DNA of 64,000 nucleotides, taken from Amphirosellinia nigrospora (Eukaryota > Ascomycota > Sordariomycetes > Xylariales > Xylariaceae). A program made the position numbers and the translations under genes. Within the stretch, counting starts at the first letter, position 1. Each line of letters opens with the position of its first letter. The stretch is from the NCBI GenBank assembly GCA_004123355.1, contig SCHM01000001.1, positions 13,216,193 to 13,280,192 on the forward strand, read 5' to 3'. Shown here piece by piece: positions 16,499 to 53,500 of this stretch. The notes under the pieces were generated by a model, which made no database searches, was not told where the DNA came from, and worked only from the letters and a program-made list of their open reading frames with translations.

Positions 16499-19400
16499 CT
16501 AGAACGACCTAACGTTGCCCACGGCAATTAATGGGAGCGCTGGAACCATCTGCTCAAATCGGTCGAGGAGTTTGGATGGAGGGTTGCCCTTGAGAGGGTG
16601 AAATTTATTGTTCTTGTTGGTCTCATCGTTCCGGTCTTTCTCAATCGTCTCCTTGTCGAAACCAAGACGCTTAGCCCAGAGATCAACTGTCTTCTTTCCT
16701 CGGTCTCCTCGAGCCTTCCATGTCTCTTTGACTTGGTCCCACGATTTGCTCGGACCCGGAGGGACCCAAGAGCCACTTTGCTTGTCGGAGATGTTGGGAA
16801 ACACCGGCGCGTCTTCCGTGGTGGCGAATACGTCCTGCATCCGGTCCTTGATCACGTCGAACTTGTTGACTAAGTCTCCGGCCGGCGCCGGTGTGGGTGG
16901 CTGCACCGAGAGACCGGTCACGAGGGCATCGTAGGCTTCTCGCCTTTGAGCAAATCGTCAACCCGATTGCCGACGATACTGGGATCACTGTTACGGCTAT
17001 CTGTAGGTGAAATATTTATTAATCTTCGGGGTGTCTAGTCAAAGTCAAGTGGGAGTGAGGAGGGAGAAAAGAAGAGAGAGATACCCAAAGATGGGTCAGC
17101 AGAAAAGGGGAGGAAGGATCTTACAGCGCGCCCACGTCGAGGTCGGCACTGGGCTGATGACGGGGGTGATCCGCCACTTCTGGTCTTTCCACGTCTCCAT
17201 AATATGAATGGCTGAATCTTCTGCCTGATCGAGACGTGGCGCCGTGACAGAGATGGTAGCTTCTGAATGGAGAGGATAGATCAGCTGCATCGGCTTCGCA
17301 AAGACTTGCTTGTACTGGGGGTCGATGGTCGCTTCTGCCTCTCTTGTCTCGTCCTCGTCCTTGCCGTCTTTTGTAACCTTCCTCGTTTCAACCAAATTTC
17401 CATCGGTGACGACGAATTGGAACGTGGCGAGGAACGAAAACTTGACGGCCTTGACGTACCACTTGTTGGACTTCTTAGCCTGGTCGGCCCGCCCATTTGG
17501 GGTTCGAGACCTGACTCGCACGTGAGGAGGATGGGAGCTGTGTCTTGGCCCTGCTGGACTTGCGCATCTGACTCTTGAATGCTCTCCTGGTGGCCGGACG
17601 CAGCAAGGAACGAGGTCGGGCTCGAAGAAGAAGACTTCATGACGACCTTCCAGAACCTATCCAGCATGGCGTACGGCGGCGGCGGAGGCGGAGAGCCGAA
17701 TTTGACTTCAAAGCCGAAGACCCAGAAATCGACGTGAACGACGCCACCGAACGGGGGACCGGACAGATCGAGCGATGCGCTCACCTCTGCGTTGATCCTC
17801 ACCGTGACCAGCCATAAGTCGAGTGTGAAGCGCACGCCGACGGCGAGGCGCGCCTGCAGCTGGAAGTAGAAGGGCTCGAAGTTCATTAGGAAGTCGACGA
17901 AGGCGTCAAACCACGCCGAGAGAGCGCCGAGGGATAGGGAGGCGTGGAGGCGCCCGCCACCCATGCAGACTTTGGGCGTGATGGCGAAGTAAGCCTCGCC
18001 CACGACGCTGAGGCTCGTGTCGACCGACCAGCTTATGCCGAGCCGTGGCGGGCGCGGATATTGTGGGGTTTGACGAAAGCTTGATGATAGCCGCCGATGG
18101 TTAGGACCAGTCACCTGCCTCTATGTCCTTCTGCCGGTCGCCCTTGAACCAGGCATACATTGCTAGGCCTCCTGTCAAGTGGCATCGCGGCGCTAACACG
18201 AACGAGCGAGGGGAGAGCTGTGCCTCAAGCTTCAAGACGCCGCTGTTAGTGTCGAACGTGCACACGATGCCGAGCTCGACGTGGGCGAATTTGACGGGCG
18301 ACGCGAGAGCCGGCACGTCGCAGGTGGCAACACCAAAGACGCCGATGAGCAGAGCAGCGCCCCCAAACTGTACGACCAGCACGAGGTTGGCCGCCAGCAT
18401 CTGGAAGGCCGTAACACGCACACCAGCGGCCGCCCAGTAGAGTCCCTCAGCCGGGCGGAACCAGACATCCTTCAGCAGTTGCTTAATCTCCTCGGCAGGA
18501 CTCGTATTGCCGCCTTGATCCCTCTCCTTGACGAATGGGAAGTCGATCACCTGCTCGACCGTCGGCAGCATGATATCCGAGTTCATGCCAAACCCGCCGA
18601 CCAGCCCGGCGAAGTCGGCAAACCCGACCGAGAACAAGGGGCCCTCGAGCTTCACGAATATGAAGCAAAAGGTGAACGTCCCCGGGTCTGTTTTATCATC
18701 ATCTTCGAAGTCTAGTTCGAAGCTAGGATCCAAGAGTGCACGCTGGTTGCGGCGATCGAGAGGATCTAGGCTCACCGTTGTGATCGCATTCCCTTCAAAC
18801 TCGCTTCTACTCACGGTGGCGTACACCCCGATCGCTTGGAACATCCAGGGCTTGAACCCCACGATCAACCCACCCGCGTATTTGTCTATCTTTGGGTCTG
18901 ACGTATCGTGCAAGAAGCCGCCCGCCACCGTCAGAGGGGGGCGATCAAGGGAGACTGCTAGCCCTTGAAGTCCCCAGGTGACCTCGTCTAGGGGTGGCGG
19001 TTGGATATGCTATACGTACTGTTGAACGGCACGCCGATGCTGAAGCCGATGAGGGACAGCCCGACTGGTCCATGAGCAAGGTGGCAATCGAGGGTGATGC
19101 CGAACATTCCCTCCTTGAACCAGAGGCCGACGTTGTCGACCGCCAGAGGGCCCAGCTTCACCTTAAACGGCGCTTTGTTGCCCTTTTCAGAGCCCGAAGA
19201 ATCTGGTGCCTTCTGCTGTGGTGCTTTCCCGGCAATCTGAAGCATATTCTGCTTCTTCTGGGGCTTTTGGCCCTTGTTGAATAGGTAGTCCAGCACCACT
19301 TCGGACTTTTGATCAACTTTTCGCACTATGACTAGGTGTGAGCCTGCAGCGATGACCGTCGGTGTCGGCTCCCTGTCGTCGTCGACAAAGCCCTTGACCT

Positions 19401-33369: not shown

Positions 33370-36300
33370 ATGTCTTTGCGAAGCCAATACCGTCATCTAA
33401 CCCTTCGGCATGAACGCCACCTCATCAACAACACGGCACCGGCTCTAGGACCTGGAGAGGCCGAGTTTAAGTCATATTATCTTCCAGCGCTCCAAGCTGG
33501 AGAGTACAGCGTAAAAATTAATCAGACTGTGAAACCGCCGCCAGAGGATCCTCGTCATAAGGACTCTCCCGCACAGCATGCCTCATCCGACGAGCAAAAG
33601 TTCGAGGTCTTAGCACCGTCATGGAGTCTCGGTGCTGCAGCCGACGGTTCAGTCTCTAATGATGCGGGAGACAATGAATCTGCTGTCGTGCTGTCCGTGT
33701 TTCCGGCACCGGGACAAACAGCGCCCTCCTTCCTGACCCTCCGCACATGGTTCTCCGGGATCCGCAGATGCCTTGGGTTCGCCGCGTATCGAAACAAGAT
33801 CCCGAGAACGGGAGGACCATCATACCTTGGTTTGCCCTGCTCGTCTTCACGGCTGACGAGCTTGAGCTGCCAGACCAAGATCGCAAAGACTTCTTCGGCC
33901 TAGTCAATGCCACTCTGAACGATGCGCTAGGATGGGATACTCTTGCGCCTGCCGTCGAGGACATTGGTAAAGGCGTAGATCGCTTGGCCAGCTTCATTTC
34001 AAAGGCAGACGATGTCGTCGACAAGAACACCAAGGCAAGTGTGATTGCAGTCACCACCGATCTCTTCAAACGCATCTTCCAAAAACCAGGGAATTCCAAG
34101 TTTGATGTAGCGCCTTTCCGCTTCATGTCCCACGTGCGTACCGTAGCGACTGATGGCACCATGTCCGCCCTAACGGCCGAGGAAAGCGTCGAGAGCGGCA
34201 AAGCAGGGACATCTACGTTCAGCATTGTTGTTTCACATCGTCTAGGCCCTTCCAATATCGACGTGCCCACGCCCGTCCTTGCCCATCTCGTCTCACTGGA
34301 GAATATTGACCAGAAGAGCGTCACCCAGCTCGACGGAAAGCAACGCGTATTGATGAAGAGCCTTTACAGCTGGTCTTACACTGCGCTACCCCAGGTACGG
34401 TTGACCCTCGCGATGAGTTGAGACATCTGGGCAATGCGAAGGAAGGCGGTGGCCTTTCTGTGTTGCGTACATTTCATACGCAGGATACGCCATCGGCACC
34501 AGTTCAGAACGAACACCCAGGTCAGAGAAGAGTGGATGACAATATAGCCGCGATAGTCACGCAGAGACAAAAAGATGGCTTCTCTCTCGTTCGACATCGA
34601 ACGGTCACGGGCGAGCAGACCGCCGCCATGTACAGAGGCCCCTTAGTGCCTACACAAGTGAACTACCCACTGCACTCGAACAAGTCGTTCCAGTCCAACT
34701 TCGGGACCGACCTGCAGATACTGGATCCCGACGTAGGACTCATGGATATTTCATATGCCTCGGCCTGGCAACTGGGCAAGTCATTAGCCATGGGTGACCG
34801 CGCCTTCACCGCTGCGCTTGCCCGACTCCGAACTTCAAACCATAGTCAAGCTCTGGAGGCGGCTAGAAAAAATATACATAAAAGCTTCGAGCTGACACGT
34901 TAGATACTGCATCTTCGCTGACGGCATATGTTCCTCAAGAGGACTTCAAAGCCGACCTGGTCAGTCTCGTTGAAGCGCTGAACAGCCTCAACTCGTCCGT
35001 CCGCACTTCGGGCACCGCGATTTCTACAAACCGTTGGCGCAGGCGTGAGCCTCTCCAGGGCCCGAAATCTCAGGATGCAGGGACGTCTGACATCTTCAGC
35101 TTCCAGTCGCCGCACATATTGAGTCAAATGCAGCAGCAATCACTCATAGCCGCCTGCGCCTCTTCCGAGGCAGTCGGTGGTAAACCATACAACTACCACG
35201 TCGTGCCGACCAACACGGACTACGCCAAGGTTCAAGAATGGGTTCTCGACAAACTGCATCTCGCCGGCATCCCCGCTCATTATCTCCTACCGGATCCGTC
35301 GTACATCCCGCCCGAGACTCTCCGTTTCTTCCACATAGATCTCAACTGGCTCGACGCCCTTGTCGACGGTGCTTTGAGTCTGGCTAACCACACTGCCTCC
35401 GACCCTGCTGGTGATTTTGCTCGTACGTCTATCAAAGAATCTTTGAACAGGTATCTATATACTCCCATCGTCGGCAGCTACTGCCAACAAATGCCGGCTT
35501 ACGGCTTTCTCCTTCGCAGCCAACTGCTCGTCCAGTTCCCGATCTCGCCATCAAGGCCGAATTTGAGGTGTCAACGGTGGCAGAAGGCGTGCAGGCACCT
35601 ATCCTAGTGCAACGTAAGCTCGCGTCGGACATAATGCTAGTGCTCTTCGACCGGAAACCGCCGGGCTAGTCAACGTCAAGTTCACGCTCCCGGCACATCA
35701 GCAGACATTCATCGCCGCGACCAAGTTCCACCCCCCGGATAACGACCACCCGTACCCCACGGCCGAGATCTTCCACAAGAGATCTACGCCACGAAACCCG
35801 ATGTCTTGAACCCGATGCCTTCCGATGCAGAGCGCATAGAACCCATCTTGGTGGATAGGTATCCCCGCGACGACCTTTTTGACTGGGACGCGCGCACGCT
35901 GCGGGTGCAGAAATATGCAGATAAGATCTTCGATGTACTGGACAAAAAGATGCCGCAGACACCGGTGAGGCAGTACAGAGAGAAGAACATGACGTCGGCG
36001 GTCCTGGCTCTACAGCTCAATGCGCCCATTTACACGCTCGTAGTCCACGCCAAAGACCCTAACAAGAAAGCTTCGAATGAAGCGTTGCCCGACTGGCAAA
36101 TGCTGGCGAAGCAGCCCACAACCTTCCGGTTTCATCCCCAGAGTCTCCCATGGAGAAGAAGTATCAGCATTTATCAACCACGACGCCTCTTCCGAAGCCG
36201 AGACCAGTCAAACTCTTCAGACCCATCAAGCTTCTGCGCGAGGAAGATGTTCACTGCCCCAATCCCCGCCAAGAACATGAGCGACCTTTCTGCAACTTTC

Positions 36301-36952
36301 ATCAACGTCTCAGACACTCAAGCCGACTCAGCTACATACCCAATGCAGCAGAGCCCGGAAGGAAGAGGAATGAAGACGACACTATTCCCGTTACCCCCGC
36401 CCCCCAGCCAACAGACCAACCCGAATTCAGCATCTCAGTGAAACCCATCAACCAACCGCCCACAGCCTTTGACGTCCCCACGAACCGACGTGTGCCCTCA
36501 GACCTAATCTTCAGCATCGTAGTCCCCTCCATCCTCGCGCCCTGGAACTACCGGCTCATGTCAATCGAGCTCCGCGTGCGCATAGGGGAGACAAGAGACG
36601 ACAAAGACCCCAACAAAATCACCACGAACCGGGCCCTCATCCGTCGCGACGCTGATGCGGGGCCGCCGCCGACGATGCTGTCGAATTTACAGTTTAACGT
36701 TCTGCGCAGCTGGGACATGGAGGCAGGGGAATTGGTGCTGACGTGCCGCGGACGTTGTGGGGCGTGCATATGAAGACGCTAAGGGAGGCCAGTTTCTTGC
36801 TGCCTATGGCGAGTGTGGTGCCGTGGACGCCGCCCAAGGGGAAGAAGTATCGGTCGCATGTTGTGATCAAGTCTGTTATGCGGTCTATTGAGTCTGATCA
36901 TCCGAATTTTGACTATACTCATGATATTGATGTGGAGATGGGTGTGGAATAG
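33370..36952 (+). CDS. Very large uncharacterised protein B
   Basis: The frame opens with ATG at 33370. Motifs in order: LPALQAGEYSVKINQTV (a beta-strand-rich N-terminal domain), FEVLAPSWSL, DPQMPWVRRV, IPWFALLVFTADEL, FRFMSHVRTV, VLAHLVSLENI, YSWSYTALPPGTVDPRDELR, MYRGPLVPTQV, LMDISYASAWQLGKSLA, then YVPQEDF, GIPAHYLLPDPSYIPPETLRFFHID, and a C-terminal LWGVHMKTL...YTHDIDVEMGVE. The length is about 1,190 residues. No named domain can be assigned. From memory, the order 'LPAGTYT... LPWER... PWLALLLF... HLVSLEG... YRGPLVP... ISYAAAWQLGR' recurs in large bacterial proteins of unknown role; unverified. Its pairing with protein A suggests the two act together. About nine single-base frame steps occur. 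Confidence 0.65.
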
Positions 36953-37048
36953 GCTGATGGTAGGTAGATGAAGGAGTAGATAGATCGGGGTATATGAATC
37001 ATAGTAGGTATGTATTTTAAACCTTGGTATAGAACTCCCGCCTGCGTA

Positions 37049-37468
37049 TTACCGAACCGCACAAGATGACCTGGCAGTATTCATAGTATCCTCTACCTCG
37101 AAAAAGAGCTGGGTCTCGGCGTCTCGGCCGACTCCATCAGCTGTCCGAATGGCTGTGGGTCGCGGGACGGCACATGCCGCCCCACCCTCTGCACTCGGTG
37201 CTAGAGCTGCCATTTGTAGAGCCGGTACAGCGGGTCGTTGTTTTAGGTCTGCCCGCCAGTTTTCGGATTGCTGATGCGCCCGAGGTTGCGCACCAGTGAG
37301 CACAGCAAGAGTAAACTGGCCATTTAATTTGCCCAACACTCGACCTTTAGATTTCTCAATGGATGCCATTTGATCAAGAAACGTGCTACTATAGGTGTTC
37401 TTGCGCTGCTGTTTTTCGCTTGGTGGTTGAGCTGCACCGGCGAATGACCGGAAGGCATTGCGATCCAT
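37049..37468 (-). CDS. Small hypothetical protein
   Basis: A continuous 139-residue frame with an ATG (MDRNAFRSFAGAAQPPSEKQ). It is rich in Ala, Gln and Arg with a short helical KSKGRVLGKLNGQFTL segment. No domain or homologue is recognised. It lies between protein B and the Argonaute, and could be a real orphan gene or chance. It crosses no frame break, unlike its neighbours. Confidence 0.3.
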   Translation of the reverse strand: MDRNAFRSFAGAAQPPSEKQQRKNTYSSTFLDQMASIEKSKGRVLGKLNGQFTLAVLTGAQPRAHQQSENWRADLKQRPAVPALQMAALAPSAEGGAACAVPRPTAIRTADGVGRDAETQLFFEVEDTMNTARSSCAVR

Positions 37469-38788
37469 GCTCCGGAACCTGTCTTCGTTCCAGGGGCTTT
37501 ATAGTTATTGTGAGGCCCGGATCCATATGCCGATACCGTAGTGACGATATATGATTGTTGTCACGGAGATCTGCAGGGGTTCAAAAGCCATATTTGTGTG
37601 TGTGGGCGCAGGGCAGTCTGACTGCCCTGGCCCCCTACTAAGTATATAGACCTGTGTACACGATCACGTGACCTAACCTCCGAAGATCCCCCATATGGGT
37701 TTATATACCCCTTGGGAATAGCTTCATTTTGGGGGGCAATATCCACTTTACCGTAACACACCCCGATCTCTTCGACCTAGTACGAAAAGATCTCCTCCAC
37801 GCGGAGGGCTCTATTGCAGGGCTATAGATTACTTACGTTATTATACTACGAGCATACCCGTAGATGCCCTAGTACGCCGCCACGCGCCGCTATTCTTTAC
37901 GGCGTCCTAAGTTTATAGCTAACTAGGCCGGCGTAATCTTTATATAAAAAAGGAATATTTTATTAAATAATAAAATAACAAGTAATTAGCTAATACCCCG
38001 AAATAGGTTTAATAAATAAAGATTAAATATATAAAAACTCACGGCCGTTTTAAATAATAGGAAAAGGTTTAAGAATTAAGAATATTAAGCCTTTACCCCT
38101 ATACTTCTGCCTACCAATGAGCTATCGGCGACCCTACTTCACTCTGGAGCTAAACCACCTGATACACTTACGCTGAGAGGCAGGTGAATGAACTCACAGA
38201 CTAGCTTCCCGCAGCTTCGAAAGCGATACCTTAGGGATAGAGCCGAATTGCAAGTGGGCTACGAACGCAGCGATTATGCTTCTCTTTCACGCAGAGAGTC
38301 AAATGCCAACAGCGCTGCGACAGTCTATCTCCAGTTGCGAAACGTGAGAGCGACTCATATTTCGTATCGCGTAATCTGCCAAGGCCTTTTCGGGCTATTC
38401 TTTAAGCCGCTGGGAGACACGGACGTCTGGCGGGTAGTAACGAATTCCTTAATTATACGATAAACGATGAAAAAATGCACCTTGTCTTCAAGATAGAGGG
38501 ATGACTGTTGGTATAGGTCGAATGAACAGGTAAATTTTAGCGCCTTGTCGTGCACTATCATAAATTCTATAGACTCTATGGGAGGAATGATCCCGTCGTA
38601 GCAGGAAACAGGATGACAAATATCAAACAAATTGACAAGATACTTTTGGTGCGGAATCTCAGATGTGGCATGGATACTATGGACTTGCAAAATAATCATT
38701 ATCAAATAAGAAAAAAGGGAAGGGGATAGAAGGTAAAAGAGAGGTGAGAGTGAAAAGAAAGAAGGAAAGAATAGGTAGAGGCTGGAAA
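37469..38788. other. Decayed, partly AT-rich intergenic region
   Basis: No gene is supported. The stretch at 37,780-38,100 is rich in TA steps with short GC islands, as in repeat DNA changed by repeat-induced point mutation. A short tRNA A-box-like segment lies near 38,100-38,150 on the minus strand but has no T arm. Confidence 0.45.
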
Positions 38789-41700
38789 TTAGATATAAAA
38801 CATTGTATTTTTGACCATGGGATGAATCGTCACTAAGCTGGCGTCCGGCATCTGGCCGGCAGCACTTGTCCCCACTGAGCTCGTATCAGGACTCATCGCC
38901 GGCGACGGATTGTATAGGCCATGTAAGTAACAGCGAGCTCTCGTGCAAACCAGATCAGCATAGTAAGCTGGGGGGCAAACGCTCACAGCTTTGGTGGCTC
39001 GTCCGAAGAGGTAGCACATGTTATGCGTGAGGTCCTCTAGGGCATCTGCCGCTGTGGGGAATTGCGCCGGTACCTTCAAATTCCGGAAGATCTGGTCGTA
39101 GACGACGTAGTAGTGTGCCGGTTTCGCGGTGCCTTGGATCGCGGTATGCGCCTGGAGGAAGAAATCCCAGTTGCGGGCCTCCGTGACGCCGCGGTCCACT
39201 ACGGTGCCGTTCTTCGGGTTACCACCGCGGTCCGCGTCGTCCATTTTTGTGGGGTAGAAGCGTGTATTGTGGTTCTTCCCCCGATGATGATGGTGATTCG
39301 GGGCTTGCCGGCCTTGGTGTCCGAGGCCGGATACACCTCTTGGCAGGCGGTGCGGAGAGCGGGGAGTTCCTGGTCCACGACGATGTTGTACTGGCCCTCG
39401 GACACTCCATCGCGATACACAAGGATGTTTTCTGGCAAAACTTTATTTCTTTCCTTCCAAAGCAGCAACCGTGACTTCATCATCTTGTCCAAATCAGCTA
39501 CCATCTCCTGACGGGCGGGTTGGATGCGAAGATCGGCTGGCCATTGCCCCAACCATTCATCAACCGAAGCGACAACTCCGGCGACACTTGGGGCCCTCGA
39601 TGAAGAACCGGGGCCGGATGGGTAACGTCGATTCCGACGACCATAGTCTTTTTCTGTGAGATGAATCCTTGCTTAGAGGGATCGAGTGAATGGTTTCTGC
39701 GCCTAGCTTCAGGTTGAACTTAAGGCCGACATTCGCTAGGTACTGGGGATTAGCTCTCGAGAACTTCGAGTCCAGTACACAAACGTTCAGTATGCCTTCA
39801 TTCACATCGCATACATGTTTAACGCGGTTATACGCGGCAGTCTTTTCGGCCTCTGGGATGACCACCAAGATCAGTTTCGGCCGTTTTGGGTTGATCGCAA
39901 ACCTGTGTATCCAATGGTCGATCTCAGACTCCATGTTTTGGGAATCTGTGATAATATGCTTCCCAGGCATATAGTCATTCACCGAAATGCCGAGTTCCCT
40001 GAGTTTGACTTGGAACTCGTCGACCTTCGCGGTAAAGTCCTGATCGGTGGGCCAGCAGTTTCGTTCGCCTTGCAAAGAGATGCGAAAGTAGGTCCAGGAG
40101 GGTAGATCTGATTTTGTGGCAAATTTTACTGTGTGCAAGAAACACGTCAGCCGAGCTCTCTAAGTCTTGCATCACAGACTAATTAGACAAGACGCAACTA
40201 GGGGACTGAGGAACCAGGCACGAGAGGGTTTTATACATACCTGATCGCAAGTCCAGCCCCCAAACCTCGGCATGGCAACACCAGTCCCAGAATATTTGAT
40301 CGCCGGGGCGTTCAACACTCGGCCTGGGACAGTGATTAACTTCGGCGGCACGTTTATATCGAATGCACTCTGTGACCCTATTAGCTTGTGTACTTGCGCT
40401 GGGTAAGATTGCGCGCACCAATGTGGCATTGGTCGGCTCAAGCCCTAATAACGGGCCAGAAGTAACGATTGACTGAGCGTTTTGAGCAGGGCGTCGCACA
40501 GCGAAGCGAATCATTTGCTGCCCTTGAGACGAGCTTAACTTTGTCCCTGCAGGCTGCCCAGGGCGGACGTGGCATACTGCGGCTGGTAAATACGAAGGAT
40601 TGTCTTTCCCCCCAATATTGATCACGGGTAATGCTGGGTTCTGAATTGTAATGTTGTACTCTGGAACTGTCAGTACTGGGAGTTCGTCTTTAGTCACATC
40701 GGAAGCTTACTCTGCTTGAAGAAATCAAAGACACTGATATAGCGGCCTGTTGATGGTGGAGCTGGACCAGCCTTCGCAGCTTTCCCTCCTTTCTTCTTGC
40801 CTCCATGGGCTGCAGGGGTGGGCTGGCTTGAAGAGGATGTGCCAGCAGAAGTATCAAGGAAGAACTGTACTTCTTTTGCGCCGGCGCCAAATTGTGGTAC
40901 AATTGGAGGATGTGCCAAGTTACGGCCATCATCTTTTGTTGCGAAGCCTTGAACCGTTTGATCCTCGGAATGCGCTGGCCCCGGCTATTCGTTATCTTGA
41001 TATGTGTGGCATCAACTGATAATCTTTTTATAAAGCTCAGGAGCCTGTATACATTTGAACCGTGGACTGACATGTAGGCCATCATGATCTTATCAAGTGG
41101 TCCTTCGTCATAGAAGGCCATGTTTTTGACCTGTACATTGACGAGGATGCGAGCAGTCGCGGCTCGAACGCTCATGAAGAAGCCCCTGATCACTTGCAAA
41201 CCAGCGCCGAGGCTCATCCGATCTTGTGCCGCAGGACTCGTTCTGAAATGTCGATTTGCCGCTATAGTTGCTATCGAAGGCTCAGTCTTAGGGTGATGGC
41301 CGAGGACTATGTTCAAGGCTTGAATGATTTCATCTTTAGAACCAAACATTAAACCCGCTTGTGTCGAGGTCAGATGGTTGATGAGCTCAGATAGCGTCAA
41401 TGATCCTATGAACTGGATGCTGATACGGTATTGCGTCGCATTTGGTGTTGGGGTATCTTCATTTTCCGACCGGTAGGTAACAATGTAATCGTCATCTTTC
41501 ACGTCAAGCTCATCCCGAGAGATGAGATTTGACTTGTAGTCTGCCGCGATTTTATGCTTGTAAGTGGCGAAGTGCTCTTCCAGGAGTAGTTGGATAATCC
41601 TTTTTGCCTTTTTACCTACTGGTGGTGCTCTTCCTTTACCACCCGCTGCGATAGAAACACTGTAACGGTACAGCTCCAAATCATTGTTTGAGTAGAGATT

Positions 41701-42144
41701 GAAGTAGTTAGTCCAGAGTATGACCTCCTTCCCTACAACTCCATACCCCGGCCGTTGTGGGTTTACTTCGCTAGGAGGCTTCTTCATTACTTCGACAGCT
41801 GACTTGTTTTCGATTCTTTGGACTTCTTTGTCGGGATCGGGACGCTGTCCCTGGTCTTGACTATAAATGAACTCATTGTTAGTAGTTGCGTAAAACATCC
41901 TGGAAGAACCAAAATGCCAAACTTGCCTGAAAACCTCAACTTCAGTAGGTGCTCCACGACCTCTTCCTCTACCTCCTCGTTGGGCATCATAATCCCCTCG
42001 ACCTCTGCCACGCCCTCCTTGCTGCCCCCCAATATTCCCACGAGGCTCAGTTCCACGGCCCCTAGAGTGAAAGGGTATCGATTGGTCACCACGGCCTCGG
42101 CCTCTGCCTCTACTTCGTCCGGGATTGGGAGGGTTTCCCGACAT
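38789..42144 (-). CDS. Argonaute, QDE-2 type
   Basis: The N-terminus is RGG-rich (several GRGRGRG units), followed by ArgoN and linker 1, a PAZ region, a Gly/Lys-rich insert (GGKKKGGKAAKAG) before ISVFDFF, linker 2 (LITVPGRVLNAPAIKYS), Mid and PIWI. PIWI shows GIDVTHPAPGSSS (first Asp), ARQEMVADL (Glu finger), YRDGVSEGQY (second Asp) and PPAYYADLVCTRARCY (fourth residue Asp), so the DEDD slicer set appears whole. The C-terminus is TMFYI. Introns: 41861-41926 (GC-AG), 40661-40710 and 40129-40240. About 1,040 residues. It would bind small RNAs and cleave or silence matching transcripts. Single-base frame steps occur near 40960, 40400, 40260, 39650, 39608 and 39280, the last three at runs of A/T or G/C. 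Confidence 0.9.
41861..41926 (-). other. Candidate GC-AG intron of 66 nt, in frame, in the Argonaute gene
   Basis: The sequence starts GCAAGT, has a perfect ACTACTAAC branch site near the 3' end and finishes TTTATAG. Its length is a multiple of three and it has no stop, so splicing or retention both leave the frame open. Removing it deletes 22 residues with no match to the family. Confidence 0.65.
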
Positions 42145-43146
42145 TTGACGAAGTGACGAATATAAAAAGGGTTTCCGTTAAAGGACTTGGAAGGTATTCA
42201 GTACAATAATTCTGTACGAAGGCAGGGGGTCATACGGGTCGATTCATTCGAGGCAGGATATCTCTAGCTTATATATCCTAAAAGCTTTGAAAATCTTTGT
42301 TCTCGTTGTCTCGGAACCTCGGGGGTTAACTAAATAGCTTAGACCACGTCTAAAGGTTACATTCGGGTGTACCCAACCAGAGTCCGAGACCTTGATCTAT
42401 ACAGATACGTGTGACAACGAAACGATGAAAGTGGTGGGGTGGCGATTTTATTTGTCTTGCGCTCGACGAACATGAGAGGTTTGAATATTAAGGGAATGCT
42501 GTAAGCTTATGAGCAAGAAGTGATTATATGCGGGGGAAATTTGATGAGAAACCCGCATACAGTGTCAAAGATGATGTACGCCATGCTCACGTCAATCGCC
42601 GCCCGCACAAACTAACATTTGGATTGTCAATGCATATCCCTGATAAGAACAATTACATCATTAATTATTAAATCCGCAAGAAAGCTTGTAGTGCTTTCAC
42701 TTATAGCTACTATTAGCTCTAGAAGGCTAGGCGTTTAATGGAGTTACTCATGCTTAGACGACTTGGATTACGATACGTATCAGCCCCGTTCGGATAGGTT
42801 TACGTGACGGAGGGCCTGATTCGACTTTACGGAATCTACTATATTAATGAAATAATAGAGCCTGCATCGTTTTATGCAACGTAGCTTGATTTATTTGCTT
42901 ATGTGGCAGTGCTGCAACCGAATAGATTATGATGAGTCACTCAGCGGCCTGGTAGACCATTATATTCGATGGCAATCTCCGCGCCAATAGATGAGAATCG
43001 CGGTAAGATGCAGGCGGGGTAAAGCCGTTTGGCGCCAATAAATGAAACAAACATTCAATAATCATGACGCTGAGGGGAGATCCAAAACAGTCTTGGACAG
43101 TGGCATCAGCATCTGTTGCTTTCAAATTATCGCCAAATAGGCAAAG
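42145..43146. promoter_or_regulatory. Shared divergent promoter region of the Argonaute and helicase-AAA genes
   Basis: One kilobase separates the two divergent start codons, with no supported gene between them. The middle (42,480-42,900) is AT-rich. Co-regulation is an inference from the arrangement. Confidence 0.5.
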
Positions 43147-46100
43147 ATGTCAGGCCAGAGAAGCTCACCAAGGTCCACTCGGCTGCGGGTACTCTTTACG
43201 GGCGTGCTGAAAGGTGAGAAAACTATCGACAGCAAGACCGCGAAGTTGTTCCTCGAAGCAGTCTGTGATCAGGATAACAAAGCGTTATGTGTACAAAAGC
43301 TCCATGCCAGCGAGCATGGCCGTGTTGCTTTCCAGTCAGCCATCAGCTCGAGCACCGATCTCTCCTTCCTTCGGATTCCGTCACATCCATCCTTCAATAC
43401 CTCGCGGCGCCAGAGCTGAAGACGTTATGTGGTGGAACTGTCTTGGAACAGTTTATACTTAGCTTCGTCGAGGCAGAGCTTGCTTGGGACGCATATGTCA
43501 CTGCATTTAAATCCGGTCAGTTGAATGAAGATGGAGAAGATTCGTTTTCATGGCTCTTGTTGGAACTATTTTCTTTACCTAAGGATAGAGCTACTGCGTT
43601 CATACCACTTGGACAAGACGCGACTATCAAGAAGAGACTTCTGGAGTCGACTACACTTGAAGTCCGCTCACGCGGTAATAGAATCAAGCACATTATTGAA
43701 AATCTGATTGCAGGACATTCGGTTGATTCAAACGGGCCGGGCGGACGACACGACAACGATTTCACCCAAATCAGCAAGATCGCGATCGTTCCAACTGCCG
43801 ACGAACTTTCGGCCGATGACCCTTATCTCCCACGCGCTCACGAGACGAATACCCTTGCACAACGACCAGATGGGCTTGCTTACCACCTGGAAGGCCAGTT
43901 CCGTTTGCTCCGTGAGGACATGGTACGGGATATGAGGGAAGAGATCCACGTGGCACTGAATATGCAGAAGAAGCAACGGCGAGCATTTTCAGTCGAACAT
44001 CTCTCCGTAGCTGGAGTGCATTGCGACGGGAGGAGCCCGTGGGCTCTAAAACTCCAGTGCATGAATGACCTCCCGCAGATGCCCAAGAAGAACGATGAAA
44101 GACGAAAATTCCTCAAGAACAATCCGAAGTATCTGAAGCACGAGTCGTTAGCATGTGTGATTGCTGATGATAAGGTTGTTACGCTGGGTACTTTGATTCG
44201 TGAAGAGGAGCTTCTTATCATCAAGCCACCGATTCTATGTTTGCAAATTCCAGGGGCCAACTCTGAGAGAGCATTGCATAGTATCAAGGGAGCCAAAGCT
44301 GTCAAATTGGTGCAGTTGAACCCCGCCTTGTTCTCCTATGCGCCGGTTCTGAAGCAACTCCCTGAAATCAAGGAGTTGCCCTTCGAGGAAGAGATTCTTC
44401 GTTGGAATGCTGAGTCGAAGCCCCAGACACCAGGCTACGTGCTTTCTCCTATTATTTCGAATCTGCTAAGGGATTTACTCAGTAACCCCTCCTTCGATAT
44501 CCAAAATGCCCTTGGGCTCCCCAATGCGACAACACTGGATAAGTCACAAGCTGCATGTTTCGTGACTGGAATGCTCAAGAGGCTGAGTACAATACAGGGG
44601 CCACCAGGTTAGCCTCTTCTCAATTAGCAGCGGATTGAGACTGATTCCTATTAATGAGCAGGGACGGGGAAATCATTCATCGGCGCGCTACTTCTAAAGG
44701 CGATTTTCAGCCACTCCGAGGAGACAATCCTTGTTCTAACCTACAAGCACCATGCATTGGACCAGTTCCTCGAAGATTTGATTAAACTAGGCATTCCAAA
44801 AGACGAGATCGTTCGTCTAGGGTCTTCTAGGAAGGCCGCCGCATCTGTTCAAGACCTCTCGATGAGAGATGCTGCGCAGAAAGTAAAGCTTACAACAGAG
44901 CAATGCAAGATTCTTGATTGGATGAAGAAGGGAGCCCAAGATGAAGGAAAGAGTTTGGAACGGGCATTCTCAGGCCTAGACCAGCAAGCGCCTCCCAGAG
45001 ACGAGATTCTCGAACACCTTGAATTTCTCACCGAAGGTCCTCCCTTCTTCTTAGCCTTTCAAGTTCCCAAACGCGACGACGGGACAACTTACGTGGGAAA
45101 GAAGGGCAAAGCCATCGACAGTACCTTCTACTTACTCGACCAATGGTGTCGAGGAAAGGATGCATCGCCGTTCAAGAGGGTGGCTCAGAAATATCCCGAG
45201 GTATGGAATATAAAAGCGTCTGACCGAATGAGGCTACAACAGGAATGGAGGGCCGAAATTCTCAAAGAGAGGCTAAACGCTGTTCAAACAGCTGGCGATA
45301 GCTATAATAGAAATCTTGAGAGGATCAAATCGGTATACATGGAGAGAGAACTCACGGTCCTACGGTCAAAGCGCGTCATTGCCTGCACCACAACAGCTGC
45401 GGCGAAGTATGTGCAAATGCTGAACTCGGCACGTCCTGGTGTTGTCCTCGTGGAAGAGGCAGGAGAAATACTTGAGAGTCATGTATTGACGGCACTGGGT
45501 CCAGAGACAAAACAGCTCATTCTCATCGGAGATCACAAGCAGCTCCGACCGAAAGTGAACTTTGCTCTTAGCGTTGAGAAGGGTGACGGGTACGACCTCA
45601 ACATGTCTCTCTTCGAACGGCTGATAATGCGGGGATATTCTCATCAGACCTTGCTCCAACAACATCGCATGCGGCCCGAATTGGCCAACTTCGTGAGGGA
45701 ATTGACATATCCAAATCTTGTTGATGCCGCCAGTACGAAGAATCGCCCGAATGTGAAAGGATTGCAAGACAATATCATCTTCTTAAGCCATACTCACAGT
45801 GAGGAGCAAATGCAAAACGTACGAGACTGGAAAGATGGTGCATCTCCCTCCACGAAGAGAAATGCGTATGAAGTACAAATGGCAAAAAAAACCCTGCGCT
45901 ATCTGAGTCAGCAAGAAATCATAACGCCGACGGAAAAAATCGTCATCTTGACGCCCTATCTGGGTCAACTTCATCTCCTGAGAGACGAGCTTAGCAAGGA
46001 CAATGATCCGGTCTTGAATGATCTTGACTCACATGACTTAATTCGAGCGGGCCTAATGTCTTCTGGGACAGCGCAGGTTGATAAACCAAAGATTAGGATA

Positions 46101-49100
46101 TCGTCGATAGGTGAGCCCACCAACTTTGTGTTGTGTAGCTCGAATGCGCTGATAAATGGCAGATAATTTCCAAGGAGACGAGAGCGAGATCGTTATTGTG
46201 TCGCTGACCCGAAGCAACGAGAACGGCGACATAGGGTTTATGTCATCTCCAGAACGGCTCAACGTACTCCTCTCACGGGCCCGAAATGGCCTTATTCTCA
46301 TCGGTAATGCGGAAACCTTTATGGCCTCGAGGAAAGGGGGACAGTTATGGAAACGCTTCCTAGATATGCTGAAAGTACAAAATCACATTTATGATGGGCT
46401 GCCAACCAAATGTGAACAGCATCCCAAACGACTTGCCACCCTGAGATCTCCCGAAGACTTCGACAAGGAATGCCCAGATGGGGGATGCAAAGAACCTTGG
46501 TTAGTATTTCCAGATCGCTGTTAACTTCTTAGCTAACTGGAAATGTAGCGGCGCAGTTTTGCAATGCGGTGTACACAATTGCCCGAGAAGCTGTCACCAT
46601 CGCTCCGATCACTCTAAGATGAGATGTGAAAAGATCCTCGAGGTCAAGTGCCCGAACGGACATGTACAGAAGCGAAAATGTTATGAGAAGCAGCCCTTGA
46701 AATGTAAACGATGCGACATGGACGCAGAGAGAGCCAGGAAGATCTTGGAAAGGGATATCGAGCTTCAGGACAGACGACTGAAAGATCAAGTGAAGCATGA
46801 TATAGATATTGCAGAACTAGACATGCAAATCCGGAAGATAAAGGAGGATGTCGAGGATAAAAAGGTGGCCCAGGAGCGAGCACAGGCGCTAGAGCAGAAG
46901 AAGCGCGACTTGGAGGCTGCTCAACGTCTAGCTTCTCAAAACATAATCTCTCAAGCGACGAGTTCTAACGCCACCGTTTCCCAAACCTCGACTTCACATG
47001 CCACAGTCCCCCAGCCTTCACGACCCCCTTCTACTACTGGCACACCCACTAATAGTAGTAATAATGGGAAGGGTGCTCCGCCACCAAACACGCAAGGCCA
47101 AAAGACCGCGAAAGCCCCGAAACCGCCTCCTCCCAAACCAGCTGCCCCAAAGAAGAGCGCCTCGGAGCTGGAGTGGGAGAGGCAAAAGAGAATTGAGGGA
47201 GCCTCTAATACTGCCATTGACGACCTGATGGCTCTTACCGGGTTAGAAGAGGTCAAGGAGAAATTCCTCGACATCAAAGCAAAGATAGAAACGGTAGCAA
47301 GACAAGGCATCGATATGAAGAAGGAGAGAATGGAATGGTGATGCTGGGAAACCCGGCACAGGTATATTACACTTTAGCGTGCATATGTACCGGACTTCAT
47401 TGTTGACGATCATTGACAGGCAAGACGACGGTGGCGCGTATATATGCGCGATTCCTCGCCTCCGCGGGGCTTTACCCGGAAAGGAGTTTGTTGAGATCAC
47501 AGGATCTGGGCTAGCAAATGAAGGGACTGCTGGCACCAAGAAGATGATAGAAGGGCTCGTGAAGGCCGGCGGTGGCGTCTTCTTCATCGATGAAGCGTAT
47601 CAGCTGGCGTCCGGGAACAACTATGGTGGGAAGAACGTACTGGATTTCATCTTGGCGGAAATCGAGGAGCGAAGGGGAACCATCGCCTTCATCTTTGCCG
47701 GCTATGTGAAAGAAATGGAGAAGTTCTTCGAGCACAATCCAGGGTTTGACAGTCGGATGCCTCACAGACTGACCTTCGCTGATTATTCGGACCAAGACTT
47801 GCTGAAGATGCTAAATGCCATGATCGAGAGAAAGTACGGTGGCCGGGCTACTCTTGAGGACGGCGGATACGGCCTTTACGCGAGACTGCTGATCAAACGT
47901 CTGGGGAGAAGGCGAGGTACGGAGGGTTATGGAAATGCCCGCGCTTTGGAGAATGTCTGGGCACAGGTTACGGAGCGCCAAGCTTCTCGGCTGAGAAAGG
48001 AGCGAGTCGCAGGGAGCTCACCAGATGACTTGCTCTTTACGAAAGAGGACCTCATAGGACCTGAGCCAAGCGGAGCAATAAAAGACAGTCCTGCGTGGAA
48101 GGAGCTTCAGTCGTAGGACTGGAAAAGGTCAAGAATTCGATCAAGGCGCTCGTTGATGCCATCCAACGCAACTACCACAGAGAGTTGCAAGAACTCGAGC
48201 CGCTAGGGTTTACACTTCATCGTGTCTTCCTTGGCTCGCCTGGCACGGGAAAGACGTCGGTTGCTAAGTTATACGGCTCAATCCTAGCCGATTTAGGCCT
48301 GCTGTCAAAACGAGAAGGTATGTTGCTCTTGACAGGAGGAGACATCTCACTTCGTTGATGCTGATTGTTGATTATAGTTGTTGTCAAAAACCCTTCCGAT
48401 TTTATAGGATCAGCACTAGGACAATCGGAAGAGAATACGAAAAAGATCCTGAAAGTGGCAGCGGGAAAGGTGCTAGTGATTGATGAAGCCTACGGCCTTG
48501 ATGCCGGTGGGAAAGTTGGCGGTGGTCAAAAAGATCCCTTCAAAAGCGCCGTCATCGACACCATCGTGGCCGAAGTGCAAAACACTCCGGGTGAGGACTT
48601 GTGCGTCCTCCTGCTTGGATACCAAGAACAGATGGAAGATATGATGAACAACTCAAACCCTGGCCTGGCAAGGCGGTTCCGGCTCTCCGACGCGTTCTAC
48701 TTTGACGACTTCAATGACCAGGACCTACTGTGGATTCTTGATTTCAAACTGAAGAAACAAGGGCTAAAGGCGACGGATGATGCTAAACAAGCCGCGATAG
48801 AGTCCTAGCCCGCGAACGAGATCGCCCAAATTTTGGTAATGCCGGAGCCGTAGAAAACATGATCTCACGCGCAAAGGAACTCGAACAGAAGCGCACCTCT
48901 GCCGCAGGGCCAGGCAACTTTAATCCCGACATCACTTTTCTCCCGCAAGATTTCAATGAGGACTATGACAGAATAAGCGGCGCTGGACTCAGCTGCCGAG
49001 ACCTGTTCAGTGATGTTGTGGGATGTGAGAAACTCATCGACCAGCTTGAGAAGTATCAGCGAATTGCTCAGAATATGAAGCAACATGGGAAAGATCCTCG

Positions 49101-50510
49101 CACTCAGATTCCGTTTACTTTCTTGTTCAAGGGGCCTCCAGGTAAGAATCTACTTCTAGCGAATATGTAAGCCAACTACTGATTCAGTATCGGGCAGGGA
49201 CCGGGAAAACGACGGTAGCACGTAAGGTCAGCCAACTATATTACGACATGGGGATCTTAGGATCACGCGACTACATCGAATGCTCTGCGTCTGACCTCAT
49301 CGGCCAATATATTGGGCAGACTGGGCCGAAGACTCAGGCAAAATTGACCGAAGGGCTAGGGCGTGTTCTTTTCATAGACGAAGCATATCGATTCTGCGAT
49401 AGCCAGTTTGGCAAAGAAGCTATCAACGAACTCGTCGATTGCCTCACAAAACCCAAGTACATGGGAAAGGTAGTTGTTATCCTTGCCGGCTATACTCATC
49501 AGATCGACGAGTTATTGCGGATCAACCCCGGTCTTTCCAGTCGCTTTCACGAGGAAGTAGTCTTCGAGAACCTGGACCCGGAGAAATGCCTGGAACTCTT
49601 GGGTCGCGAGATCAAGAAACAGGAGATAGAGGTTACTCCAGCGATGAATTGCCTCGCGCCCGATGAACGTCAGCAGATGCTCGATGTTTTTGCGGAGCTG
49701 TCAAAATTTCCGTCATGGGGAAACGGTCGGGACGTGAAGAACGTCGCCAAAGATATCTGCTCGGATGCGTTTGCTGGTAACGCGGCCTCGGGATTGACAG
49801 TGAGCGTTGCCGACATCCTCCGGCATCTAAAGGAGATGTTCAAATCCCAGAAGGCGAGAAACGACATTGGGAAGAGTTCCGCAAGCGATCTATTCAAGTC
49901 CAGTAGCTTACCCATTCGGACACAAAGCCCGCCAAAGCCTCCGAATGTCATGTCCACAACATCGAAGGTCAATATGGCAGAACCCACCCCGCCGAAAGAG
50001 GACGAGCCACATGTCGAGCCCAACTCACGAAGGCCTGCGGACTCTTCATCGCAGCGCGACCCTGGTGTCACGGACGATGTATGGCAGCAATTACAGAGAA
50101 ACATCGCAGAGGAAAAGGCTCTAGAAGAAGCTAGAAAGGCGTTCGTCGAAGCTCAGGAGCGGGAATACGAGGCACAGAAAGCGGCTGAGGAAGCGAGGCT
50201 CAAAGAGCTTCAGCGGCTAGAAGAGGAAAAGCGCAAAGCGGACGAAAAGCGCCGGCAGGAGATCGAGGAGCAGCTGCGAAAGGAGAAGCTGCGGATGGAG
50301 GCCGCTCTTCGGGCGAAGAGAGACGCCGAGGAGAAACTGAGAAAGATGCGAGAAGATGCGGAGAAGAAGAGACGCCAGGAGGAAGCGGTACAGAAGAAGA
50401 TTAGACAAATGGGAATTTGCCCTCAGGGATATAGATGGATTAAGCAAGTGGGAGGTTATAGGTGTGCCGGGGGTTCTCATTACCTGAGCGACCATCAGCT
50501 TGGAATTTGA
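43147..50510 (+). CDS. SF1 helicase / NF-X1 zinc finger / triple CbbX-type AAA+ ATPase (ZNFX1-like)
   Basis: The N-terminal region is unique. The helicase has Walker A GPPGTGKSF (split by the intron 44608-44661), VVLVEEAGEILESH (motif II as DEAG-like EEAG), LIGDHKQLRP, LLQQHRMRPELA, DNFQGDESEIVIVSLTRS and RLNVLLSRARNGL. Cys/His-rich NF-X1-type repeats follow (CGVHNCPRSCHHRSDH; CPNGHVQKRKC), then a coiled coil, then three AAA+ modules with GTGKTT/GTGKTS Walker A, and FFIDEAYQL, LVIDEAYGLD and LFIDEAYRF Walker B. The C-terminus is a long Glu/Lys/Arg coiled coil. Introns: 44608-44661, 46111-46162, 46500-46548, 47362-47419, 48318-48377 and 49142-49197. About 2,350 residues. Relatives act in small-RNA silencing and RNA quality control. 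About five single-base frame steps (near 43380, 47340, 47357, 48110, 48805). Confidence 0.88.
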
Positions 50511-53500
50511 GGTGGTGTTTTGCCGGCGTTGGACTTGGTACTGTTGGGAAGATGGGTAATGCTTAGATCATAGTTGAAGCGGACGCCTTGGGACTTAGTG
50601 AGTTAATGTTATTTTAGGTATATCTAATCTAGACAAGAAATTGTGGCTGCTATCACACAAGAGAGAAGATCTTTAAAGTAATGCAGTAGAAGGCAACTTG
50701 AAGAAGTCAAGTGGGATACCAAGTGCGCGAGTTAGCCTGACAACTTGAATGGTTTCGCTGGCACATACTAATTTCCTGTGACTAAGGTGAATGGATTCCT
50801 TGCTATTTGTGCTCGTCCCTGTAATAGGCCTGTCGAGAACATCGGGTTCGTGATATCAGTCTATCCAAACGCATAACTATCATCATATGGATATGTGTTG
50901 TCGGGTTCTCGAAGCTCCAAGTCTATGTACGGAGAGAAGGGTCGGACATGAAACAACTCGTCATCGGTCTGGAAATCAGGGTACAACGCCGAGGAGCTAT
51001 CTCATGCAAGCACTTTATTTCCTGATGCAACGTCGAAACTGTGCATTATCTTTAAACATACCACCAACATCCTTGTTGTTGCATACAGGCGACAATCTCC
51101 GGAGGGCTCCGGTGCAGATGGGGCCGAGCTGTATACTTAGTAGTCGAACCTAATGCATGACATTGAAAGGCCGCTTGGCATCTGCTGGGCTATTTATTGT
51201 CCACTGCGGGGTAGGTAGACGTAGGGTCTCAAAACCTAATTAAAAGGCGAATGCAATTATGAATACACGAAGACCTCTGGTATTAGTAAATTGAGAGGGA
51301 TCGGACATTAGAGTTTTGCAGACAAGGCGTGAGAGGCGAGAGATGTTACGATGTAAAAAACTGTCGTGTTCGCATCGGAAAGATCTCTATCTACCCCTCG
51401 CGGGAATCAATATTGGTGGAAACTGCTGTCTAGTTGAACCACATTATACTCATCTTTACTAGAGGCAAACTCCAAATCGCCGAGGAAACCATTTTAGGTA
51501 GAATTCTTCTAGTCTAATGAAATTCTTAGAACTGTAGTTGACGGCAAGCTGCTATACTCATAATCAGGTTAAGATCCGCCGAATGTAGCAGGCAAGAACA
51601 TCGACGACAAATTGCGTGAGATCCTGCCCAATCCCGAGCCCCAAGAATCTGGGAATGCAGGCACACAATCGCGGTGGCTTGACTATCAATAAAGCACTCA
51701 TATGAAACTAGTATATGGGATATCACGAACCCAGTATGTGATAGGTCATAGACACTTGTCACTGCGCAAAGGTCTCTGAAACTACCCTCATGGAAACTAT
51801 TTAGCCATATCTAAGAAGTTTCTTTGTTTACGTCTGTCTGCCCATGCCCTGTGATACAGGATTTCGGTACTGTTAGAATAAGAGCTGGGGACGAGAGCAT
51901 CTTTTCTTTCGAAGCGCCAGAAGAGTGAGCCTAGGCTGAGCTTGAGACCAAGTCTCATCCTCGATATGTGATCTAGGACGATAAGCATACTCATCAATAT
52001 GTTAGTTTCCTTATAATTTCTAAGGAAGGTTTATTTATAAGTACTTAAGCTTAATAAACTCTTTGCTATAGCCTCGAAGCACTAGCCTCTGTGCCCAAGA
52101 ATGGTTCTAAATGCCAATATTAAATATTGCTGCTGTCTGAGGAGCTTTGATTGTAAGCAGAATTTGTGCCTGCTGGCTTATACACCTCAGAGCTTTTGGC
52201 CAGTGCGGACGAGGTCAGTAGATCATAAGTTATTGGGTTAATTTCCGTGACGGCGATGCATATAACATTTTAGTATAGGAAGCCAGCGTGATATCGTTGA
52301 TGCATTTGAACGGGGAAAAAGATAACCGAAAAAAACTGTGGCATACTGAACCTACCATGATTGAGTTCACAGATCGAGAATGGAAGGTCGTTTGTATCAT
52401 CGCATCATGAAGTTGGAGACCCACGGTTAGTCTATGCCCCGGGTTTGGATACAGAGGATGTCCGATTTTTTTCTTGACCACGCCGCAGCCGGCGTCACAT
52501 CCATTTCTTCCGATAAGCCAAACAAACCGTCGTCAACCCGGTCATTCCATGCTGCAAAGTCTTGCATTGGGATCCTCGCGACCATAGATTCGTGTGGGTT
52601 TACGTTACATCTGGGGTCATTTCAGGCTTTTGAGAGTGGCATGGGCTTGAAATAAGCATCTCGGCCCAAGTTCGCGGGTTCCAAAGACAGTCTTGCGGGT
52701 CGGAGAAATCATGCGGAAGGGGTTTCTCACGGAATAAAAACGACGCCGTTAATACTCCGCGAGTATTAACGGTATATGTATCCACTTCTACGCGACAGGG
52801 TTTTTCCTCGGCTCTAGAACATCCAGTTCTGGAAGATTCTATATCGATTCTTGGTCTGCGTGCAAAATCTTCCTGATCGCTTCAGAGCCCGAACGGGAAA
52901 ATTAAGCAAGAGAGAACAAAGATTGGGGTACGTATGCTGCATAAGTACTCCAAAATGACCCTGTATGCATGAGAGGGCTAAATACGAAACAAGTGGTAAT
53001 AGATTCCTACTGCGGTATTGTTCTAGAATAACTTGGAATAGGCGGCAACCCTGCGATGCCAAAACTTCTCGATGCATTCGCGCTTGTTTCATGATGATGG
53101 AGGCATGAGCATTTCTTATTATAGCACTGCAGCGACATTCCGGACTAGGTATGGTACCGAATCGCAGCCGGAAGCCGGACCGAGCCGGACCGTCCTCGAA
53201 GCTACGTGCCTGAGCGTACAGTTGACAGCTGTCCAGCACAGTACGCTAATCTTGGTACCCTTCACGTGCCAACACGTGTACGCGGACTACGCGCGGTAGA
53301 TCGCGCACGTTGATTGCCTGCCGGGACAACCCTTGGTCCGCCGCGCGCGCCGTAAATAGGTAAGTATACGCGCGCTGCCATGTTCCTGCGGGACTACTGC
53401 CACACTTGTGCTGTACTACTGCCTGCTGCCGCTGCAGCGCACAGGCTCCCAACTGGATTTCATCAAGATAAGAGAACTTCCCCTTGCAGTTCTTCTTTTT

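Follow-up and report, generated by a model that had tools for sequence, protein, structure and literature searches.

Does the side-by-side position of an Argonaute gene and a helicase gene in a fungal genome reflect mere gene order, or a joint role in RNA silencing? The question is raised by a 64 kb stretch of DNA (hereafter the window; G000:C1:13216193-13280192) from a 48.1 Mb eukaryotic genome of 11 contigs, which carries short introns, QDE-2-like Argonautes, RNA-dependent RNA polymerases (RdRPs) and Dicers and, judged from these, belongs to a filamentous fungus. In the window, a QDE-2-type Argonaute gene on the minus strand lies head to head with a plus-strand gene that encodes a ZNFX1-like helicase followed by AAA+ modules (the helicase-AAA gene), with 1002 bp between the two ATGs, the layout that an earlier note on this DNA had described. 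Based on the domains and catalytic motifs of both genes, their adjacency in two deeply diverged fungi and a Dicer that adjoins them in one of the two, we consider it probable that they encode two components of a single small-RNA silencing pathway, kept as a rearranging RNA interference (RNAi) gene cluster.

The second occurrence of the pair was found by scanning genome contigs with the C-terminal piece of the Argonaute. The matching contig, NYXK01000109.1 (122 kb; L054), is filed under 'Deltaproteobacteria bacterium isolate CPC1 67595', a bacterial metagenome-assembled genome (MAG). We take the contig to be fungal because of its intron-split Dicer and Argonaute, a gene of the 2EXR family (presumably a fungal family) and, on other contigs of the assembly, RdRP matches of eukaryotic type. 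Here, the Argonaute and the helicase-AAA gene are immediate neighbours, tail to tail and approximately 370 bp apart, with no gene seen between them; as L054 contains undetermined bases nowhere but in the gap between Dicer and Argonaute, the junction of the pair is clean. The earlier note had conceded that a pairing unique to one strain would speak against its proposal, and the adjacency on NYXK01000109.1 removes that objection. The L054 exons are long and open, including 456 and 501 aa in the Argonaute and 539, 504, 265, 336, 293 and 484 aa in the helicase gene. Both genes are orthologues of the window pair: the helicase core has 57% identity between L054 and the window gene, against 33 and 32% for L035 and L036, two ZNFX1-like paralogues of the window genome. 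Summed by hand, the L054 Argonaute pieces score ~605 bits at the window locus and 418 at the next Argonaute (AGO) locus; the longest single match falls at the latter, a consequence of the frame breaks in the window copy (described below). Fungal contigs bearing Dicer, Argonaute and RdRP genes are part of this bacterial MAG record (G001), in which one RdRP stretch is present twice with identical scores.

The pairing is, by the measure of these alignments, old and has survived rearrangement. Across 891 aligned Argonaute codons, the two fungi share 59.4% amino-acid identity and 35.1% of third positions; across 2215 helicase-AAA codons, the values are 56.3 and 34.6%. Synonymous sites thus appear to have reached saturation, which implies a long distance between the two fungi and a link between the genes that has outlived it. 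The 122 kb contig has 222 ORFs (open reading frames) of at least 100 aa; of these, 19 have a match in the 64 kb window, every one of them inside the pair, which is the only common content seen between the two. Since the orientation differs between the two fungi, the pair has either survived rearrangement or re-formed through it. The probability of a single chance adjacency is ~0.002, given four AGOs with two neighbours each and three ZNFX1-like genes; this is a rough guide, as 14,000 genes were assumed and the pair was chosen by eye. That the same two genes adjoin in a second, deeply diverged fungus, joined there by a Dicer, argues that the pairing is more than chance and bears out the earlier suggestion that it means something. 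An old pairing that survives rearrangement supports a joint silencing role.

What does not carry over to the second fungus is the shared divergent promoter, which the earlier note had made the point of the pairing. In L054 the two genes are tail to tail, and it is the Dicer that lies head to head with the Argonaute; the divergent layout is not conserved, and this rules out a shared divergent promoter as a conserved feature. Nor does co-expression follow from close pairing, as the note had held. Use of such a promoter by both genes in the window species is possible, as the two starts diverge within the approximately 1 kb taken to define bidirectional promoters (1002 bp, measured ATG to ATG). 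The intergenic stretch contains a single imperfect 14 nt direct repeat and, at the settings used, no inverted repeat. It shares eight 9-mers with the L054 AGO promoter (shuffle mean 2.5; eight were reached in 3 of 200 shuffles), a signal too weak to claim as real, and shows no excess of common 9-mers with the L054 helicase promoter. No Rfam match was found in 36000-53000, and no tRNA in the whole window.

The note's identification of the two genes and its coordinates for the locus (38789-50510) proved correct. Short introns and four frame breaks divide the Argonaute gene, which comprises N, L1, PAZ, MID and Piwi regions. Pfam matches were obtained for ArgoN, ArgoL1 and Piwi, and the PAZ domain, which is split by an intron, gave a piece of 24.8 bits, under the 28.8 cut-off; the gene has the ArgoN, L1, PAZ and Piwi set of eukaryotic slicer Argonautes. 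Its closest solved structure is Neurospora crassa QDE-2. The catalytic residues are D, E, D and D, an intact tetrad of the DEDD/DEDH kind and the one that the note had named; their codon positions in Table 1 derive partly from hand arithmetic. In an alignment, the glutamate is common to all four AGO sequences that span it (L054, L032, the window and L034). As to which residues form the tetrad, including the roles of D1 and of the glutamate finger, we followed the accepted assignment. The protein is apparently slicer-competent and would cut guide-matched RNA.

The helicase-AAA gene encodes, in order, an N-terminal region, a superfamily 1 (SF1) helicase core, a Cys/His segment, a coil-like stretch, three AAA+ modules and a coil-like C-terminus. 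The best match of the core in the PDB is human ZNFX1 (9q9z, E 7.4e-42), nearer than AQR (aquarius, 4e-13), UPF1/NAM7 (2.6e-10), SMUBP2 (1.2e-4) or SEN1 (7.4e-4), as expected of a ZNFX1-family core. The N-terminal region is 49% identical to that of the L054 orthologue across 409 aa, and was aligned by hhalign to the L035 N-terminus (probability 95.8, E 7e-9) and to L036 over just 38 columns, at the Walker A end; its predicted structure (predicted local distance difference test score 37.6) was too poor for use. The Cys/His segment has no Pfam zinc-finger match, but by its pattern at 46565-46627, which is kept in L054, it may be an NF-X1-type finger. A 278 aa open frame (46505-47338) takes in this segment as well as the first part of AAA module 1, and the corresponding L054 exon is likewise continuous. 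Because the two share one open frame, we read the helicase and the AAA modules as one gene. Walker motifs are present in all three modules, which places them with CbbX-type AAA+ proteins; the Pfam AAA match is above the cut-off in module 3 only, and AAA_lid_6 has no match in that module.

Table 1. Features of the Argonaute and helicase-AAA pair in the window and in L054
Feature	Position	Strand	Basis or remark
Argonaute gene (QDE-2 type)	38792..42144	-	ATG at 42144, last sense codon at 38792; start MSGNPPNPG
Fourth catalytic D (PPAYYADLVC)	38945..38974; D codon 38954-38956	-	motif scan; aligns with D of QDE-2 and KpAGO
Catalytic D2 (NILVYRDGVSEGQY)	39388..39429; D codon 39409-39411	-	motif scan; alignment to QDE-2
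Glutamate finger (RIQPARQEMVADLD)	39487..39528; E codon 39505-39507	-	E common to L054, L032, window and L034
Catalytic D1 (VVGIDVTHP)	39615..39641; D codon 39627-39629	-	motif scan
Intergenic stretch, candidate divergent promoter	42145..43146	.	1002 bp, GC ~0.43; sharing a candidate only
Helicase-AAA gene	43147..50507	+	candidate ATG 43147
N-terminal region without Pfam domain	43147..44609	+	carries QFRLLREDM, as in ZNFX1-like paralogue L035
ZNFX1-like SF1 helicase core	44589..46521	+	Pfam AAA_11, AAA_12
Helicase Walker A	44589-44684	+	interrupted by intron
Helicase Walker B (VVLVEEAGE)	45441-45467	+	motif scan
Cys/His-rich segment, NF-X1-finger-like	46541..46700; CGVHNCPRSCHHRSDHSKMRC at 46565-46627	+	sequence; kept in L054
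AAA+ module 1	47221..48113	+	AAA_lid_6 27.6 bits; AAA 20.3 bits, slightly below 21.2 cut-off
AAA module 1 Walker A	47335-47355 and 47416-47454	+	interrupted by frame break and intron
AAA module 1 Walker B (VFFIDEAY)	47577-47600	+	motif scan
AAA+ module 2	48091..49080	+	AAA_lid_6 34 bits; AAA 17.3 bits, below cut-off
AAA module 2 Walker A / Walker B	48227-48259 / 48467-48493	+	motif scan
AAA+ module 3, CbbX-like	49081..49690	+	Pfam AAA 5.1e-13; best PDB CbbX 3zuh, E 1.7e-24
AAA module 3 Walker A / Walker B	49120-49143 and 49197-49226 (intron between) / 49362-49388	+	motif scan
C-terminal stretch and cysteine-bearing tail (GICPQGYRWIKQVGGYRCAGGSH)	50060..50507	+	coiled-coil-like by eye; tail kept in L054
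L054 Argonaute	~7198 to 10495	+	ArgoN, ArgoL1, Piwi; ArgoL2 below cut-off
L054 helicase-AAA gene	~18355 to 10870	-	domain order as in window gene
L054 Dicer, head to head with L054 Argonaute			Dicer_dimer 2.3e-26; Ribonuclease_3 3.3e-43 (two stretches); Helicase_C 5.7e-18

How might the products work together? In the pathway that we propose, Dicer would make small interfering RNAs (siRNAs), and the Argonaute, loaded with them, would locate and cut the target RNA. The helicase-AAA protein would then open or hold the targeted RNA or its ribonucleoprotein, with the outcome that silencing is amplified or the complex recycled, and the cluster would be kept together without dependence on one fixed common promoter. 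The CbbX-like fold suggests that the AAA+ tail may remodel the RNA-protein complex. We infer the common pathway, any physical partnership, the substrate and an anti-virus or anti-transposon role from the sequence comparisons; defence against transposons or viruses, which the earlier note had raised, is plausible from the family. More tentatively, a dedicated RNAi locus, open to rearrangement, may in some filamentous fungi unite a Dicer, a slicer Argonaute and an AAA+-armed ZNFX1-like helicase into one silencing module, in which the helicase-AAA protein would be a new core partner of the Argonaute.

Such a role would fit what is described of related proteins. ZNFX1-type helicases help to amplify small RNAs in worms and in fission yeast and serve defence in mammals, and Schizosaccharomyces pombe Hrr1, called a ZNFX-1 orthologue, works with RdRP and Cid12 (PMC9276528). 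The N. crassa helicase SAD-3, a homologue of the S. pombe protein, takes part in meiotic silencing and is perinuclear, as is the Argonaute SMS-2 (PMC5555490, PMC10411587). Epimutation by RNAi in Mucor requires the SAD-3-like helicase RnhA, and two more relatives, NCU09357 and NCU05861, are present in N. crassa (PMC5384783). The window gene resembles this family in its SF1 core, nearest to human ZNFX1, in its position beside an Argonaute and perhaps in the Cys/His segment after the core, which may be NF-X1-like. It differs in lacking matches to the Pfam ZNFX1 domain, which L036 has, and to the RZ finger, which L035 has, and in carrying three CbbX-like AAA+ modules. The lengths of SAD-3, Hrr1 and RnhA (1160, 999 and 1231 aa) and the domains given for RnhA leave no room for such modules (PMC5384783).

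The comparison extends to the other components. The window Argonaute resembles Neurospora QDE-2 and SMS-2 in its N, L1, PAZ and Piwi domains and DEDD tetrad, with QDE-2 as its best solved relative; it is, however, one of four AGO loci, and is named QDE-2-type by structure match, not by orthology. The modules share with CbbX the AAA fold, with AAA_lid_6 in modules 1 and 2, and module 3 is nearest to CbbX and EccA1, but unlike in CbbX the three stand in tandem, fused behind a helicase. We also presume a likeness to SpoVK. In the S. pombe association of Rdp1, Hrr1 and Cid12, a ZNFX1-type helicase likewise keeps company with core RNAi enzymes (PMC9276528). The partner there is an RdRP in a protein complex, whereas here the tie is gene adjacency to an AGO, with a Dicer added in one fungus. 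We take RDRC to be the name of that S. pombe complex. SMS-2, SAD-3 and DCL-1 of N. crassa are numbered ncu09434, ncu09211 and ncu08270 (PMC5555490); by gene number, which is not map position, these three, NCU09357 and NCU05861 do not look adjacent. ZNFX1-type helicases are already known as parts of fungal RNAi (Hrr1, SAD-3 and RnhA), and the AAA+ fusion and the locus appear to be new: in searches of open-licence literature, no title or abstract opening among the results gave an account of this pair or of a fungal Dicer-Argonaute-helicase cluster. The helicase-AAA gene is a candidate RNAi factor outside gene lists built on AGO, DCL and RdRP alone, and the locus suggests that fungal RNAi genes can cluster with changing order but the same company. 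The locus also offers a compact genetic system in which gene removal in laboratory fungi could test how ZNFX1-type helicases meet Argonautes.

Several points weigh against a joint pathway. Adjacency was compared in two genomes only, and a conserved neighbour can be inherited without joint function. In the window genome, the pairing occurs at one of at least four AGO loci and one of at least three ZNFX1-like loci. The Pfam ZNFX1 domain (PF25396) has no match in the window helicase piece or in its L054 orthologue, and L036 (C4:5.50 Mb), judged from its ZNFX1 domain (3.2e-23) and ZNFX1 structure match (2.9e-96), is probably the most direct SAD-3/Hrr1 counterpart, so that the RNAi role may be the paralogue's. 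Finally, the Dicer-Argonaute junction in L054 is less certain, because the gap (L054:6900-7100) contains a near-identical segment twice, with an offset of ~79 bases (one shared word begins at 6949 and again at 7028), and eight undetermined bases (6983-7027) scattered in the second copy.

The AGO loci comprise Piwi-family matches at C1:4.67, C1:3.30 and C5:4.95 Mb and in the window; the second of these (L033, C1:3.3015 Mb) is a divergent Argonaute, with 30-39% identity to the window Argonaute across the Piwi region. The ZNFX1-like helicases comprise the window gene, L036 and L035 (C1:12.91 Mb), the last with ZNFX1 as best solved relative, an RZ-type zinc finger in an open frame downstream and a match of only 0.23 to the Pfam ZNFX1 domain. 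Since that domain was not found in the window gene, the gene is named ZNFX1-like here rather than a SAD-3/Hrr1 orthologue. Pieces of the window helicase gene had no match in 9.9 kb around each of the other three AGOs, nor did Argonaute pieces in the 9.9 kb stretches around L035 and L036.

Against a common pathway, the alternative that survives best is simple inheritance: the two genes were neighbours in a common ancestor and were never separated, and the helicase-AAA protein has some unrelated task concerning RNA or stress. In fungi, gene content can outlast changes in gene order and orientation, and both the restriction of the comparison to two genomes and the other three AGO loci, which have no such neighbour, would suit this explanation. 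We nevertheless consider it unlikely, as no ORF of at least 100 aa from the rest of the 122 kb contig matches the window, synonymous sites look saturated, the change of orientation means that the pair survived or re-formed through rearrangement, and a third RNAi gene, the Dicer, adjoins in L054.

A second alternative, to which we give somewhat less credence, is that the functional unit consists of AGO and Dicer, with the helicase-AAA gene as a bystander or in a separate role such as sensing viral RNA. The head-to-head AGO and Dicer in L054 are consistent with this, as is the description of mammalian ZNFX1 as a sensor of double-stranded RNA viruses (PMC11574294). In the window genome, however, the best match of the L054 Dicer lies away from the pair, at C4:1.497-1.4995 Mb, and it is the helicase that stays adjacent.

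It should be noted that neither gene of the pair, as assembled, forms a single open frame even when introns are allowed, a feature missing from the earlier note's account of the locus. Reading the three-frame display against the L054 exons, we counted four frame breaks in the Argonaute and six in the helicase-AAA gene, all ten net -1. As a control, we used same-genome family matches that abut or overlap, leaving no space for an intron. Two of three RPB2-family loci are broken (C8:649268-650336 and C6:2233230-2234286), with all seven joints net -1, and the third (C1:13601920-13603005) keeps its frame throughout, with a single in-frame TAG. Five of ten HSP70-family loci are broken, at eight such joints (six net -1 and two net +1); at two more HSP70 joints, the gaps of 49 and 134 bp could be introns. 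Together, 13 of the 15 control joints are net -1. Genes of the RPB2 family are essential, and because they break in the same way, assembly error is most likely the cause of the ten breaks in the pair. That both genes are pseudogenes in this strain, as the ten breaks and the unbroken state of other genes (two RdRP genes with open frames of 917 and 934 aa; the RPB2-family match without frame change, though with its TAG) might suggest, is very improbable: the breaks are uniformly net -1, the aligned pieces have no in-frame stop across 891 and 2215 codons, the catalytic and Walker motifs are intact, and the breaks in the RPB2 and HSP70 families, with the long open exons of the orthologues, led us to set real decay aside.

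Searches beyond these two genomes found little. The window helicase had no relatives in a scan of genome contigs, the Argonaute C-terminal piece gave one further, weak match (L055, 1e-4), and among the 52 genomes of the phylum under which G001 is filed, G001 included, only G001 matched. No relatives were found in four scans of viral contigs, nor in plasmids, which were searched with the helicase only.

Two other helicase candidates in the window genome were rejected. L037 was removed from the ZNFX1 list, being SEN1. An RdRP with a helicase ~3 kb downstream (C4:1.903-1.909 Mb) was dropped as a second pairing, as the helicase is nearer to UPF1/NAM7 (1.1e-23) than to ZNFX1 (1.7e-9). The RdRP and this UPF1-like SF1 helicase (L038:4081-9822; C4:1903080-1908821) lie on one strand with open frames between them, and are possibly one fused gene. 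Stand-alone CbbX-like multi-AAA paralogues of the helicase-AAA tail occur at L040 (C7:93-95 kb) and L041 (C1:4.372 Mb), with no helicase match within 9.9 kb stretches. A P-type ATPase near the L054 cluster (L056:5362-8853) is 35-53% identical over four pieces to one of the window genome (L041:2153-4226), beside the multi-AAA paralogue there, a resemblance that could be either chance or old linkage. Elsewhere in the window, a DUF6603 match (1.2e-54) lies at 17284-18120 on the minus strand. Long minus-strand open frames follow upstream as far as 22735, and at the first two joints they overlap in differing frames, resembling the breaks of the Argonaute and helicase-AAA pair.

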